49,004 bases of DNA. Origin: a virus. The stretch is taken from the IMG/VR virus record IMGVR_UViG_3300046692_000136, positions 1 to 49,004 of that record; one strand, given 5' to 3'. The notes under the pieces are model-generated. The model saw only the letters and a program-made list of their open reading frames with translations. It had not been told where the DNA came from and ran no database searches. A program made the translations under genes and the position numbers. Of the stretch, positions 7,161 to 14,662 are shown piece after piece (within the stretch, counting starts at the first letter, position 1; every line of letters starts with the position of its first letter).

Positions 7161-7244
7161 GTGACATTCGGTGAAGTCATCCGCGCCATCATCACAGTGG
7201 CAGCGATCCTTGTCATCATGGCCCTGTGCCTGGTGTATCCATGA
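7161..7244 (+). CDS. 27-aa membrane peptide, first plus-strand gene
   Basis: A GTG start with GGGAGA upstream encodes a 27-residue peptide that is almost one TM helix (IRAIITVAAILVIMALCLV). Its TGA overlaps the ATG of the next gene (ATGA), the same coupling used throughout this operon, which supports it as a real gene. No family recognised. Confidence 0.6.
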   Translation: MTFGEVIRAIITVAAILVIMALCLVYP

Positions 7245-7444
7245 ACGCCGACCGTCGCCGCCACTTCGACCCATCGCCCCGCATCGAATACGCGCCGGTG
7301 CAGGGCCATTGCCGCCTGATCCCGCGCAACACCTTCACTTATCCGGCGCTGATCGCACTCGGTTTCGTGCCGCTCGTCGAGGAGGGCGACTTCGCGCTAA
7401 TGCAGGCGCCCGCAGGTTTCGAGGTCGCACAGGAGCGCACATGA
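7241..7444 (+). CDS. Hypothetical 67-aa protein
   Basis: Starts at the ATG overlapping the 27-aa peptide stop. An upstream in-frame start at 7226 is less likely. The fold looks mixed alpha/beta and soluble (YPALIALGFVPLVEEGDFAL). No family recognised. Coupled by ATGA to the repeat protein downstream. Confidence 0.65.
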   Translation: MNADRRRHFDPSPRIEYAPVQGHCRLIPRNTFTYPALIALGFVPLVEEGDFALMQAPAGFEVAQERT

Positions 7445-8226
7445 ACACACTTATTGCTTTTCACAATGATCCGGCCATCAAGGCGAAATACATCGCGCGT
7501 GTTCGCCAACATCGCTTGGCCGATCAGCTCGTGCGCGGTCTCGGGTGGGATGCCGAAAGATCAAAAGGCTGCGCGATCGGTTGCACGCTTGAGGCGTACG
7601 ACCATTCCCGCTATCCCATCGAGCTCGGCCTTCCCGAGTGGCTCGCGCGCCTTGAGGACTCAATCTTCGAAGGCCTGCCGGTTGCCGAAGCACAGGCGTG
7701 GCCTGAGGCGTTTCTAGAGGCCATCCATCCCGGCGCAGATCTTGAGCCGATTCGTCATCAACTCGCATTGCGCCGTATCGATCGGCTGATCGCGCTGCAG
7801 CAATCGAATCTCGGCAAGCACGCCGAAATCGATCCGGTTATTCAGCAGACGATCGCCGCGCTTGCGCTAGTTCGTCGCTGTCACGAAGCCGAAATCGGCG
7901 GAAACGTTTGCGACGCCACGGCGCGTTCGGCGTGGTCGGCGGCGGAGTCGGCGGCGCGGTCGGCGGCGCGTTCGGCGTGGTCGGCGGCGGAGTCGGCGGC
8001 GCGGTCGGCGGCGCGGTCGGCGGAGTCGGCGGCGTGGTCGGCGGCGGAGTCGGCGGCGCGGTCGGCGGAGTCGGCGGCGGAGTCGGCGGCGGAGTCGGCG
8101 GCGTGGTCGGCGGAGTCGGCGGCGTGGTCGGCGGCGGAGTCGGCGGCGTGGTCGGCGGCGGAGTCGGCGGCGTGGAAGCAAGAAGCCACCGATCTGCTTG
8201 AGCTGCTGCGCGAGGTCACGCCATGA
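7441..8226 (+). CDS. Protein with Ser-Ala-Ala-x tandem repeats
   Basis: 261 aa; start at 7441 by ATGA overlap. Residues 1-160 are an ordinary acidic helical domain with no named family. Residues 163-245 are about 21 tandem units of S-A-A-x, where x is Glu, Arg or Trp, with several units shortened to three residues. A 16-residue tail follows. Such Ala-rich repeats with E, R or W every fourth position would make one long helix with a charged and aromatic face. Similar Ala-Ser-x repeat proteins are seen in other phages, without an agreed function. The repeat DNA is open in several other frames, which are shadows. Confidence 0.8.
   Translation: MNTLIAFHNDPAIKAKYIARVRQHRLADQLVRGLGWDAERSKGCAIGCTLEAYDHSRYPIELGLPEWLARLEDSIFEGLPVAEAQAWPEAFLEAIHPGADLEPIRHQLALRRIDRLIALQQSNLGKHAEIDPVIQQTIAALALVRRCHEAEIGGNVCDATARSAWSAAESAARSAARSAWSAAESAARSAARSAESAAWSAAESAARSAESAAESAAESAAWSAESAAWSAAESAAWSAAESAAWKQEATDLLELLREVTP
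7927..8175 (+). repeat. 12/9-bp GC-rich tandem repeat in coding DNA
   Basis: Built from TCGGCGGCG followed by GAG, CGG or TGG, with occasional units missing one GCG. The near-perfect repeat should be prone to slippage in 3-bp steps, changing length without breaking the frame. The unit order is irregular, consistent with repeated expansion and contraction. Confidence 0.9.
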
Positions 8227-8438: not shown

Positions 8439-8617
8439 CCACCATCCCCGCCGAAATCGACGCGATGGTCGAGCTGCTCGTTCGCAATGAGCTGATCCGC
8501 GTGGCGCCGGTGGTGTGCAAGCTGTGCAGGCCGGGTGAGCCGTGCTGGTGGTGCCGCAGTTTTCATGCGCAGCCGCATCGCGAATCGCAATCCGTGAGAC
8601 TGGAATCGGGAGAATGA
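8435..8617 (+). CDS. Small zinc-finger-like protein, 60 aa
   Basis: Contains CKLC and CWWC (about residues 28-31 and 37-40), two CxxC knuckles seven residues apart that would bind one zinc ion. The rest is polar. Coupled by ATGA to genes on both sides, directly before the exonuclease. Function unknown. Confidence 0.65.
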   Translation: MTTIPAEIDAMVELLVRNELIRVAPVVCKLCRPGEPCWWCRSFHAQPHRESQSVRLESGE

Positions 8618-9513
8618 CGATCATGGAACGCCAGATTATTTCCTATACCGACGAAGCCGCATGGCTCGCTGAGCGTCAAAAAGACGTGACCAGCACCGAC
8701 GCTGCGGCGCTCTGCGGCGTCTCGCAATGGAAATCTCGCTGGCAGCTGTGGCGTGAGAAGAGAGTCGGCGAATATGCAATCCGCGACGAGTCGGAGCCAA
8801 TGCGTTGGGGCAAGCGCCTGGAAAGTGCGATCGCCTTGGGCTTGGCCGCCGACAACGATCTCGACGTCGTGCCGCTGAAGGATTACGCGCGACTTCCGGA
8901 GCACCGCATTGGGTCGAGCTTCGACTATATCGCGCGGGATCGCTCGTACCTGCTCGAAATCAAGCTGGTGGGTCCAGAGGCATTCCGCAGGGGATGGTTG
9001 GAGACGGACTACGGGCTTGAAGCTCCGATCGAGATAGAAGCTCAGGTTCAGCAGGAGTCTTTGTGCATCGACGTACCGCTCGCCTACATCGGCGTTTTCT
9101 GCGGCACGCAAGGCTATCTATTGCGCCGCGAATATCAACCGGACGTCGGCGAGCGCATCATCACTGAGGCGGATGCGTTCTGGAAATCACCGGAGCCAGC
9201 GCCAGACTTCTATTCGACGGACGCTGATTTCATCCGCAAGCTGTACTCGCGCGCCGAGCCAGGCCGGGAGATCGAAGCCGATGGAGCAACTGCGGAGCTG
9301 ATCGCGCGCTTTGCCGAAGTTAAGTCGCAGGCGAAGGCAGCGCAGGATAACGCCGATGCCTTGCACGCCGAAATACTGACGAAAGTCGGACTCGCCTCTC
9401 GCGTATTCACGCCAGAACTTCGGCTTGATTGCGAGGAGCGCGGCGAGACCTTCGTCAAAGCACACACCCGCAGGGGATTTAGAAATTTTCGTACCTATCC
9501 GAGGAAGGACTGA
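8614..9513 (+). CDS. YqaJ/lambda-exo-type recombination exonuclease
   Basis: A 299-aa PD-(D/E)xK nuclease of the YqaJ viral recombinase family. Visible active-site residues are E70 (GKRLE), D104 (SFDY), E115-x-K117 (LEIK) and Q144 (AQVQQE). These enzymes digest the 5' strand of double-stranded ends so that a partner annealing protein can load on the 3' strand. The partner here is the RecT-like protein at 10929-11660. The ATG at 8614 overlaps the upstream stop. An upstream extension to 8542 would overlap a real gene. Confidence 0.92.
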   Translation: MTIMERQIISYTDEAAWLAERQKDVTSTDAAALCGVSQWKSRWQLWREKRVGEYAIRDESEPMRWGKRLESAIALGLAADNDLDVVPLKDYARLPEHRIGSSFDYIARDRSYLLEIKLVGPEAFRRGWLETDYGLEAPIEIEAQVQQESLCIDVPLAYIGVFCGTQGYLLRREYQPDVGERIITEADAFWKSPEPAPDFYSTDADFIRKLYSRAEPGREIEADGATAELIARFAEVKSQAKAAQDNADALHAEILTKVGLASRVFTPELRLDCEERGETFVKAHTRRGFRNFRTYPRKD

Positions 9514-9725: not shown

Positions 9726-9940
9726 GCGCAAAGGGTCGAGCGAAGCGAAAAGGCAATTCGTATCAGGCTTACGAACTCACCGCCGTACTGATCATCGATT
9801 TGATCTACGTCGGATTCGTAGGCCCTGAGCTTATTTCAGCGAAGGATTCATTTGCTGTCGTGCTCGGCGTAATCATCGGCGCAGCTATCGCTTGGATGAC
9901 CTGGCACTTCTATACCATCTGGAGAAAGTCGCATGTTTAA
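9722..9940 (+). CDS. Two-TM membrane protein beside SPFH gene
   Basis: 72 aa: a basic N-terminus (KGRAKRKGNS), a TM segment at about 18-36, a second at about 43-63, and a basic tail. It overlaps the SPFH gene by 8 bp, so the two are very likely made together and may interact in the membrane. No family recognised. Confidence 0.7.
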   Translation: MSAKGRAKRKGNSYQAYELTAVLIIDLIYVGFVGPELISAKDSFAVVLGVIIGAAIAWMTWHFYTIWRKSHV

Positions 9941-10811
9941 ATGGATCGCTGGCGGAGTGGCTTTTCTTCTCACGCTGATCTTCATGTTCGCGTTTCTAGA
10001 GCGCGTTCCGGCCGGCTACATCGGCGTGAAGTTCAATAAATTCGGCGGCAATAAAGGCGTGCAGCTGGAAGAGTTGAGTCCGGGTTATTACTGGCTCGGA
10101 TGGAACTGGACCGTATATCTGTTCCCCACCTTCACGCAGAACGAAACGTGGACCGAGAAGAAAGCGATTACGTTTCAGTCCGAAGGGATGAGCCTCATCG
10201 CCGATATAGGCATCACGTACCACATCGCGCCGGACAAGGCTTCACTGGTGTTCCAGAAGTACCGGCGCGGTATCGACGAGATCACGGACACGTTCCTGCA
10301 CAACATGACGCGCGACGAGCTAGCACGCTTGGCTGCGCCTATGAGCGTCGAGGAGGTCTATTCGAAGAAGAAGGCCGATCTGATCGATGCGGTGCAGAAG
10401 GGGGTGCAGTCGCAGGTATCCGACATCGGCATCGTCGTCGAGAAAATTTACTGGATCGGCGCGCTCGAGTTGCCTGATCAGGTAAAGAACTCTATCAACC
10501 TGAAGATTCAAGCTGATCAGATCGCGCAGCAGAAGCGAAACGAGGTAGCGCAAGCGCAGGCAGATGCCGAGAAAGAGGTCGCTAAGGCGAACGGCGATGC
10601 ACGCGCACTGCTGGCGCGCAGGCAGGCCGAGGCAGATGGCAACCTTGCGGTGTCCACAGCTGACGCGAAGGGCATACAGCTGCGCACAGACGCGCTGAAG
10701 GCTAATCCAGAGCTTATCCAGTACACGCTTGCGCAGAAGTGGAACGGTGCGCTGCCCACGCAGATGATTCCCGGCACGGCGGTCCCGTTGCTTTCACTTC
10801 CGGGTAAATGA
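9933..10811 (+). CDS. SPFH/band-7 (prohibitin-like) membrane protein
   Basis: 292 aa. An N-terminal TM anchor (about 5-22) is followed by an SPFH domain (about 26-195) with RVPAGYIGVKFNKFGG at the start and an SDIGIVVEKIYWIG strand-helix near the end. A long Ala/Glu/Gln-rich coiled coil follows (about 200-245), as in prohibitins and HflK/HflC/stomatin, which assemble ring-like membrane cages and in bacteria control FtsH. It lies between the exonuclease and the annealing protein and is coupled to a two-TM protein. It may shield phage proteins from host proteolysis or organise a membrane site for replication. Confidence 0.92.
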   Translation: MFKWIAGGVAFLLTLIFMFAFLERVPAGYIGVKFNKFGGNKGVQLEELSPGYYWLGWNWTVYLFPTFTQNETWTEKKAITFQSEGMSLIADIGITYHIAPDKASLVFQKYRRGIDEITDTFLHNMTRDELARLAAPMSVEEVYSKKKADLIDAVQKGVQSQVSDIGIVVEKIYWIGALELPDQVKNSINLKIQADQIAQQKRNEVAQAQADAEKEVAKANGDARALLARRQAEADGNLAVSTADAKGIQLRTDALKANPELIQYTLAQKWNGALPTQMIPGTAVPLLSLPGK

Positions 10812-10867: not shown

Positions 10868-10928
10868 AGAGCGAATGTCGGCCCGGCGGCAAGCGAGTAC
10901 CGGGACTCATTTCTTTAGGAGCAATGCG

Positions 10929-11660
10929 ATGAACACTGAAACGAATACCGAAATTGCACCGCACGTCGAAGTCGCTACCGATGGCACGAGCGCCGCATTC
11001 ACCGCGCAGGTTCGCCAGGCTCGCGCGCTGGCCGCATCCGACCTCGTGCCGCAGCAGTACCGCAACAACGTCGCTAATGTGATGGTGGCGACGGAACTCG
11101 CGAGCCGGATCGGCGCGAGCGTGATGGCGGTCATGCAGAACTTGCACGTGATCCAGGGCAAGCCCTCGTTCTCGTCATCGTTCCTGATCGCGTGCGTGAA
11201 TTCGTGCGGCCGCTTCTCGCCGATGCGATTCCGCTCGATCGGCGAAGGCGATGACTATGGCGTGCGCGCGGTCGCGACGGATCTCAAGACCGGCGAGGAA
11301 TGCGAGGGTCCGGCCGTGACGTGGAAGATGGTCAAGGCCGAGAAGTGGAATGCGAAGAACGGATCGAAGTGGCTCACGATGCCGGACGTTATGTTCAATT
11401 ACCGCGCCGCCGCCTTCTGGGCACGCCTGTACGCGCCGGAGCTGTCGCTCGGCATGCACACGGTCGACGAGCACGAGGACATCGCCGCGACCGTCACGGT
11501 GCTCCGCGACGCAGGACCGAAGCCCACACGCCCCCGCGCCCTTGAGTCGATCGCCGCGCCTTCCGCGCCTTCCGCGCCAGCCACGCAGCCCGAGGAACCC
11601 GGCGACGCGCAGGCGCCCGCTGGTGAGGCTGTGGCGGCATCGCAGGCAGGGAGCATCTAA
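10929..11660 (+). CDS. RecT-family single-strand annealing protein
   Basis: 243 aa; the start ATG at 10929 has AGGAGC upstream. The region with VMVATELASRIGASVMAVMQ and HVIQGKPSFSSSFLIACVN matches the core of the RecT family. The C-terminal 50 residues are Pro/Ala/Glu-rich and probably disordered. RecT-type proteins coat single strands and anneal complementary DNA. With the YqaJ exonuclease upstream this forms a two-component recombination module, possibly serving recombination-dependent replication. Confidence 0.9.
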   Translation: MNTETNTEIAPHVEVATDGTSAAFTAQVRQARALAASDLVPQQYRNNVANVMVATELASRIGASVMAVMQNLHVIQGKPSFSSSFLIACVNSCGRFSPMRFRSIGEGDDYGVRAVATDLKTGEECEGPAVTWKMVKAEKWNAKNGSKWLTMPDVMFNYRAAAFWARLYAPELSLGMHTVDEHEDIAATVTVLRDAGPKPTRPRALESIAAPSAPSAPATQPEEPGDAQAPAGEAVAASQAGSI

Positions 11661-13500: not shown

Positions 13501-13910
13501 CCCCACAATACCCGCAAGCTGCGACAGGGAGCGACACCGGTCGCGACGAATCTGAGGGTGAGCGCGAGAGGTTCCTACGCTGGTGGGAATCTGTCGAGAA
13601 TGAAAAGCTAGCCGAACACAGCGCATACGTCGGCTGGTGCGGAGCGGTGCGGAATTTGGAGCGCGAGAACGAAACGTCACGATTGCGCATTGAGGCGCTG
13701 ACTGCGGATAACGCGGCGCTGCGTGCTAGGTGCAAGAAACAGGAACTGGCTTTGCGCTGCTACACGAAATCGAAGTGGGCGCCTGTCGCCGACTACGCAG
13801 ACGGATATTGGTACATGAGCGGAAAGCCTTGGAAAGCGGCTGAATTTGCACTCGCCACCCCGCGCGCACCGGGCGAAACCCGTAGCGACACTGGAACGAA
13901 GGAACGGTGA
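13497..13910 (+). CDS. Hypothetical 137-aa coiled-coil protein
   Basis: Hydrophilic. Residues about 48-80 (RNLERENETSRLRIEALTADN and on) form a likely coiled coil. The last 25 residues are Pro/Thr/Gly-rich. It overlaps the C5 methylase start by GTGA. No family recognised. Confidence 0.65.
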   Translation: MTPQYPQAATGSDTGRDESEGERERFLRWWESVENEKLAEHSAYVGWCGAVRNLERENETSRLRIEALTADNAALRARCKKQELALRCYTKSKWAPVADYADGYWYMSGKPWKAAEFALATPRAPGETRSDTGTKER

Positions 13911-14662
13911 GTGCCTACTACAACGAAATCGATCCCTACTGCGCGAAATGGTTGCGAAACCTCATCGACGCAGGACACATCGCGCCAGGCGTCGTTGACG
14001 AGCGAAGCATTGTCGATGTGCGGCCAGATGACCTTGCCGGGTATCGGCAGTGTCATTTCTTCGCTGGCATCGGAGGATGGTCTTACGCGCTCAGACTTGC
14101 CGGATTCCGAGACGACAAACGGTGTTGGACCGCATCACTTCCCTGCCAGCCGTTCTCTGTTGCCTCAGTCCACCCGAAAACTGCCGCCAAAGGTCAGGCC
14201 GACGATCGCCACCTATTGCCAATCTTCCTCCCACTCGTTGCTGAGTGCCGCCCTCCAATCATCTTTGGAGAGCAAGTGCGAAACGCTATTAAGTGGGGGT
14301 GGCTCGACGAAGCATTCGGGGCGCTGGAACAGCTTGATTACGCCTGCGGGGCGATCGTTGCGCCAGCTCTCTCTGTCGGCGCGCGACATGAGCGAAAGCG
14401 GATTTACTGGGTGGCCGACGCCGGCGGCGCGGGACGGCCGAGACATCAGCCGATCGAATGCGTTTCTGTCGCAATGCCGCAGACACTCGCCGTCGATGGC
14501 GACCCGCTTGCTGGAGCAAGGCGCGCCTTGGACGGTGATTACAGCGGTCTACTGCATAGCGATGGGCTTTCCGTCGTTCTGGAACGTGCTGCGCTCAAGG
14601 GCTATGGCAACGCGATCGTCCCGCAAGTCGCCGAAGCGTTTATCAGGAGCTACATGACATGA
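13907..14662 (+). CDS. C5 cytosine DNA methyltransferase
   Basis: 251 aa; GTG start coupled to the previous stop. Motif I is FFAGIGGWSYALRLAGF (51-67). Motif IV is LPCQPFS with catalytic C80. The motif VI position reads EQV (122-124) in place of the usual ENV, as in many phage versions. Motif VIII is near ERKRIYWVAD, and motif X near YGNAIVPQVAEAFI. The target-recognition region is very short. It transfers a methyl group from SAM to cytosine C5 in phage DNA, probably against restriction. A second long ORF (13911-14657) occupies nearly all of the gene in another frame. Confidence 0.92.
   Translation: MSAYYNEIDPYCAKWLRNLIDAGHIAPGVVDERSIVDVRPDDLAGYRQCHFFAGIGGWSYALRLAGFRDDKRCWTASLPCQPFSVASVHPKTAAKGQADDRHLLPIFLPLVAECRPPIIFGEQVRNAIKWGWLDEAFGALEQLDYACGAIVAPALSVGARHERKRIYWVADAGGAGRPRHQPIECVSVAMPQTLAVDGDPLAGARRALDGDYSGLLHSDGLSVVLERAALKGYGNAIVPQVAEAFIRSYMT
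13911..14657 (+). CDS. Overprinted ORF inside C5 methylase (WPTP-like)
   Basis: A 248-aa frame open across almost the whole methylase gene, shifted by +1. It contains the segments MCGQMTLPGIGSVISS, LQSSLESKCETLLSGG, TPAGRSLRQLSLSARD, SGFTGWPTPAARDGRD and MGFPSFWN. From memory these resemble a recurrent group of phage proteins with WPTP and MGFP-W motifs found with or across such methylases. That resemblance needs a search to confirm. The alternative is a chance open frame caused by codon bias, or database artefacts of the methylase. No separate ribosome site is evident at its start. Confidence 0.4.
   Translation: MPTTTKSIPTARNGCETSSTQDTSRQASLTSEALSMCGQMTLPGIGSVISSLASEDGLTRSDLPDSETTNGVGPHHFPASRSLLPQSTRKLPPKVRPTIATYCQSSSHSLLSAALQSSLESKCETLLSGGGSTKHSGRWNSLITPAGRSLRQLSLSARDMSESGFTGWPTPAARDGRDISRSNAFLSQCRRHSPSMATRLLEQGAPWTVITAVYCIAMGFPSFWNVLRSRAMATRSSRKSPKRLSGAT

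Follow-up and report, generated by a model that had tools for sequence, protein, structure and literature searches.

An overlapping second gene within phage C5-cytosine DNA methylase genes and its probable role in target recognition

In multi-specific phage C5 methylases (SPR, phi3T, rho11s), the region from motif VIII to motif IX holds several exchangeable recognition elements, an arrangement associated with restriction evasion. M.EcoHK31I, which belongs to a bacterial restriction-modification system, is a C5 methylase composed of two polypeptides (YGGCCR). Lee, Kam and Shaw reportedly found in 1995 that the gene for its smaller polypeptide lies within that for the larger one, in an alternative frame, and both polypeptides are said to be needed for activity. 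The larger polypeptide contains motifs I-VIII and X together with the predicted recognition domain, and the smaller one contains motif IX (PMC3404938). M.AquI is also a C5 methylase in two polypeptides, the smaller of which has part of the recognition region together with motif IX (PMC3404938). Within phages, a 2025 report on ShiLan describes an out-of-frame HNH gene in a methylase (PMC11855218).

Here we analyze a methylase locus in the window, by which we mean the whole viral DNA stretch of 49,004 nucleotides (IMG/VR virus record IMGVR_UViG_3300046692_000136, positions 1 to 49,004). The locus has two overlapping open frames, the methylase frame (frame 0), referred to as alpha, and the +1 frame, referred to as beta. 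The nearest described system is M.EcoHK31I, and the resemblance in working is strong, the two being compared by description. Like the larger polypeptide of that enzyme, alpha of the window has motifs I, IV, VI, VIII and X and lacks motif IX (II and III are recognized by eye only), and, as reportedly in M.EcoHK31I, its gene encodes the second polypeptide in another frame. Unlike that component of a bacterial restriction-modification system, the locus belongs to a phage family whose recognition region appears to consist of one to several PTP modules read in the second frame; the putative recognition part would lie in beta here, versus the large subunit there.

The remaining systems differ in other respects. 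In M.AquI, the variable region is divided and motifs IX-X are in the small polypeptide, whereas the present locus uses a single DNA stretch for both parts and retains motif X in alpha. The recognition elements of SPR, phi3T and rho11s are in frame within a single chain, in contrast to the beta modules in the +1 frame, and can be viewed as a functional analogue. In ShiLan, too, a phage methylase gene harbors an out-of-frame coding sequence for a second protein; unlike that mobile endonuclease insertion with its patchy distribution, beta is without an endonuclease match and spans conserved motifs in nearly all relatives.

Two reading frames on one segment of the window

Alpha occupies positions 13907..14662 of the plus strand, begins with a GTG start and encodes 251 amino acids corresponding to the catalytic part of a C5-cytosine DNA methylase. 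On the same strand, the whole +1 frame is open from stop to stop over 13911..14657. Both frames were found by ORF calling, in agreement with the original prediction that one stretch of DNA encodes two proteins, and its claim of a cross-frame identity was confirmed as well: RKRIYWVADAGG and SESGFTGWPTPA are one DNA stretch translated in two frames. The 248 codons that it assigned to the +1 frame are indeed open; as a length for the protein this figure does not hold, because it is counted from a GTG adjoining the upstream stop, and comparison among loci places the start at ATG 14016 or 14028.

The most likely start of beta is the ATG at 14016..14018 (plus strand), located inside the alpha codons GAT-GTG (Asp-Val) at the comparative ATG position. 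The coding sequence predicted from this start, 14016..14657 on the plus strand, comprises 213 amino acids and the stop TGA at 14655-14657. An alternative start may be the ATG at 14028..14030 of the same strand, inside the alpha codons GAT-GAC (Asp-Asp), which would give 209 amino acids. Neither a GGAG nor another clear Shine-Dalgarno sequence was found before the ATG at 14016 in the window.

Alpha matches Pfam DNA_methylase (E=7.9e-12) and PHROG 363 (E=1.1e-64), and its AF2 model matches M.HhaI in Foldseek (E=4.3e-8); an actinophage-type alpha matches Pfam DNA_methylase over its full length. Alignments and their invariant columns place in the alpha of the window, all on the plus strand, motif I (HFFAGIGG, 14054..14077), motif IV (PCQPFS, 14141..14158, with the catalytic Cys in PCQ), motif VI, motif VIII (HERKRIYWVAD, 14387..14419, where the same DNA reads SESGFTGWPT in beta) and motif X (GYGNAIV, 14600..14620). 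The methylase frame had been described as carrying all expected motifs, which is correct for these five and incorrect for motif IX and for a conserved target-recognition domain. The motif IX profile produced no hit in the window alpha, and a folded target-recognition domain was not found in the alpha chain, whose model has a pLDDT of about 40 over residues 181-200 and of 42-55 over residues 201-230, between motifs VIII and X.

A separate observation, made by eye on the alignments, concerns the order of the motifs. In Proteobacteria-type alphas (L001-L247, and 13907-14158 in the window), a II/III-like segment (YYNEIDPYAAQWLRNLI...GDVDERSIEDV) precedes motif I, and the order looks like II-III-I-IV, unlike that of the Diva and actinophage alphas. 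The alpha of the window nonetheless gives the model that matches M.HhaI.

By itself, the open +1 frame of the window is not significant. At a G+C content of 61%, the +1 frame remains open over 14016-14654 in 8% of synonymous codon permutations (P = 0.08). This openness, weak in the window alone, becomes overwhelming across relatives owing to the depletion of stops in 139 loci.

Stop codons, start signals and selection among relatives

Viral loci for the stop test were picked solely by their methylase frame (n=139); the methylase frame of BcepC6B was among the tblastn queries, where its role was limited to finding methylase loci. The region considered extended from motif I to motif X, and the expectation was derived from a codon permutation that keeps the protein and the codon usage. 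The +1 frame was fully open between these motifs in 130 of the 139 loci, with 9 stops observed versus approximately 399 expected (0.065 versus 2.87 per locus). All nine are located at most 35 codons from motif I or at most 6 codons from motif X, and no core is interrupted. The concern that close relatives might carry stops in the second frame is thus reduced to these few cases near the ends, and the second frame withstands it. Depletion is absent from the +2 frame of the same loci (10.5 stops observed versus 9.4 expected) and from the +1 frame of 175 other long ORFs of these loci, used as a control (6.4 observed versus 6.5 expected). For actinophage-type loci, 21 of which were measurable, the IV-VIII stretch has 8 stops versus 38.7 expected. 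The +1 frame is also open at loci with 41-50% G+C, for example those of Diva, Lc-Nu and Csp-D17, near 45-50%.

Initiation signals accompany the open frame. Of 199 distinct loci, 138 have a +1-frame ATG at position -38 relative to the motif I codon, and a GGAG lies upstream in 98 of the 133 scorable loci with this ATG versus 2 of the 53 without it; the chance level, estimated from background codon usage, is about 14%. A stop just after the -38 site (at -35) is found in 19 loci, 17 of which have an ATG at -26 instead. Both ATGs are present in the window, at 14016 and 14028.

Substitutions were analyzed in 40 disjoint pairs of related loci as differences per frame-0 codon position. The methylase-only region upstream displays an ordinary coding pattern (0.077/0.060/0.267 at positions 1/2/3), and the corresponding values are 0.084/0.046/0.170 for motifs I-VIII and 0.266/0.150/0.177 for motifs VIII-X. 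In this last region, frame-0 position 1, equivalent to +1-frame position 3, is the most variable, which is the pattern of the +1 frame. Four-fold sites show differences of 0.30 upstream, then 0.17 in I-VIII and 0.11 in VIII-X, and these contrasts survive a bootstrap over pairs, including pairs in which both loci are methylase-selected. Over 14412-14582, the window shares with eight same-length, ungapped relatives (L090-L098) an identity of 72-86% in beta versus 41-62% in alpha, and beta identity exceeds alpha identity in 36 of the 36 pairs of these nine loci (0.79 versus 0.49). In the recognition region, the +1 frame is the coding frame that matters. Synonymous sites, to which the original prediction had pointed as the place to look for selection, are constrained, and the second frame is under purifying selection at the protein level.

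Content of beta and the position of motif IX

Beta matches PHROG 1008, labeled “DNA methyltransferase” (E=1.8e-9); no meaningful match was obtained in Pfam, NCBIfam or PADLOC, or in the PDB by profile or by fold. Its N-terminal part, over motifs IV-VIII, is predicted to form a helix and a hairpin (residues 75-122, pLDDT of about 85 in most blocks). This part is followed by [W/L]PTP modules and then, in most lineages, by LNPxxSRWLMGxPxEW. The beta of the window contains one recognition module, WPTPAARDGRDISRSNAFLSQCRRHSPSMATRLLEQGAPWTVITAVYCIAMGFPSFW (14412..14582, plus strand), delimited by the identity to L090-L098; it is ordered in the beta model and of low confidence in the alpha model, with beta helices at pLDDT 81-86 on DNA where the alpha model is at approximately 40-55. 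The overall beta model is weak (pLDDT 65, pTM 0.29) and does not establish a methylase small-domain fold.

Recurring module types are found on backbones that are less than 50% identical, for example in the pairs L270/L183 and L272/L120, a comparison that is biased because the pairs were chosen by beta similarity and that illustrates exchange without proving it.

The C-terminal profile of beta finds motif IX of the actinophage alphas, LNPxFVEWMMGLPxGW, which closely precedes motif X, with E-values down to 6e-10. Among 310 loci, the motif IX segment is present in beta only in 221, in alpha only in 50 and in neither by profile in 39; it occurs in beta or in alpha, never in both. The 221 beta-only loci have motif IX in the small polypeptide, as in M.EcoHK31I. 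Actinophage members differ from that enzyme in having motif IX in their alpha, and given that their betas are without it, the role of beta may differ between lineages. The window itself falls into the “neither” class: MGFPSFW (14562..14582, plus strand), a degenerate counterpart of the motif IX-like LNPxxSRWLMGxPxEW, scores 1.4 bits with the family profile versus 10.2 in the relative L093.

Alpha and beta are near-constant companions. In the set selected by beta, an intact alpha is located beside it, except in L048, where alpha is interrupted, and in L072, which has an odd C-terminus. At L048 (2320-3348), a stop breaks the alpha frame and beta is open for 266 codons, which could be a sequencing error or a rare instance of beta persisting where alpha seems to be broken.

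Explanations, existing annotation and implications

Our findings indicate that beta is almost certainly a real second gene. The depletion of stops, the start signals, the synonymous constraint and the frame-specific conservation support the original reading of an overprinted gene partnered with the methylase, and they also imply that the WPTP family is not an artefact. The role of beta had been left open; our data favor the half of the same enzyme that comprises target recognition and motif IX, and beta is probably the recognition subunit of a C5 methylase made of two polypeptides with overlapping frames.

Other explanations can be considered against the same data. Beta could be real and overprinted and yet act outside the methylase, for example as an independent anti-restriction or host-takeover protein, since no structural match links it to methylase small domains and overlap alone is no proof of partnership. 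We regard this as unlikely, given that alpha is intact beside beta in the beta-selected set save for L048 and L072, that beta covers the region expected for the recognition domain and that motif IX is carried by alpha or by beta, never by both. The position of motif IX, in frame in the actinophage alpha and in +1 elsewhere, would also require frame changes in a single chain, as envisaged if ribosomal frameshifting (from 0 to +1, possibly back) joined the frames into one fused enzyme. However, both frames are open over their full length, no single shift site would account for how far upstream beta extends and, at the family level, beta has its own conserved ATG and Shine-Dalgarno sequence, which makes frameshifting highly unlikely.

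It is extremely improbable that G+C-rich codon usage and methylase amino-acid constraints alone keep the +1 frame open and that the WPTP family is an annotation artefact. The G+C content of the window and the P of 0.08 obtained in it alone are compatible with such an origin, and WPTP arises mechanically from VADAD-like methylase sequence. Nevertheless, codon permutation still predicts 2.3-2.9 +1 stops per locus with the protein and codon usage kept, the +2 frame is not depleted, loci of 41-50% G+C are open too, synonymous sites are constrained and start signals co-vary. For the family, stop depletion, G+C-independent openness, synonymous constraint and start signals refute this explanation; the alternative, initially entertained, that the database family derives from methylase DNA is contradicted by the stop depletion and selection seen in relatives. 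That beta is a homing endonuclease hidden in the methylase by insertion, like the ShiLan element, has a negligible probability: phage methylases with an HNH gene out of frame inside them have been described (PMC11855218), but beta has no HNH or endonuclease match in Pfam, NCBIfam, PADLOC, the PDB or PHROGs, and it is nearly universal rather than sporadic. This candidate was rejected because an HNH domain was not found in the second frame and because beta overlaps conserved motifs, with no insertion.

If beta is the recognition subunit of a two-polypeptide methylase, one DNA segment would give rise to two proteins that jointly constitute a C5-cytosine DNA methylase. Alpha (frame 0) would provide cofactor binding, chemistry and motif X, and its VIII-X stretch would be mainly a disordered linker, kept open so that motif X is reached. 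Beta, read in +1 from its own internal start, would be a small partner containing the target-recognition region as at least one [W/L]PTP module, and in most lineages it would also supply motif IX. Its docking onto alpha would confer DNA specificity, and different modules would direct the enzyme to different target sites, protecting phage DNA from different host restriction enzymes. Translation of beta, its binding to alpha and recognition by the modules are what we infer from the sequences. There is perhaps an even chance that, in phages of Proteobacteria, Firmicutes and Actinobacteria, recognition is organized as an exchangeable module array off the catalytic frame, and that the frame boundary has moved, so that motif IX switches frame. 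Under this array reading, changes in specificity would accumulate in one frame and the other would preserve catalysis.

Existing records already contain traces of the second frame. Phage K1G annotates both frames, as ORF31 (methylase) and ORF30 (“Mte8-like”), and the record of Paenibacillus phage Diva includes DIVA_50, a “g49 internal gene”. PHROG 1008, the K1G “Mte8-like protein” and DIVA_50 are the same +1-frame protein, labeled “DNA methyltransferase”, “Mte8-like” or “hypothetical”. Both frames of PhiXhv-18 are named “DNA methyltransferase”; in Xanthomonas phage FoX4, the gene product with this label, gp11 (L003, 2743-3468), is the beta frame, and the methylase frame is unannotated. As far as we found, earlier annotators noted the second frame without follow-up, and our literature search retrieved no paper treating the +1-frame protein as an overlapping gene. 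The beta/alpha pair is widespread in phages and has been overlooked in annotation; it is a variant of a known but rare kind.

Many phage records annotate one of the two proteins only, or call the wrong frame methylase. If beta supplies recognition, a clone built as a single recoded ORF would be inactive or have its activity mis-assigned, and for a large class of phage methylases directed against restriction, specificity would sit in a frame that nobody inspects. Sampling of this long coding overlap is also unusually good, which makes it useful for evolutionary study.

For positions 1-24000 of the window, no relatives at the DNA level were found among phages. This part includes an SPFH/Band-7 protein (9933-10811, Pfam E=5.9e-24) flanked by RecE-like (8542-9513) and RecT-like (10875-11660) genes. 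It also includes a tandem array at 7919-8172, within the ORF 7171-8226, which has periods of 12 and 45 bases and encodes Ala-Ser-Ala-Ala-Glu/Arg repeats.
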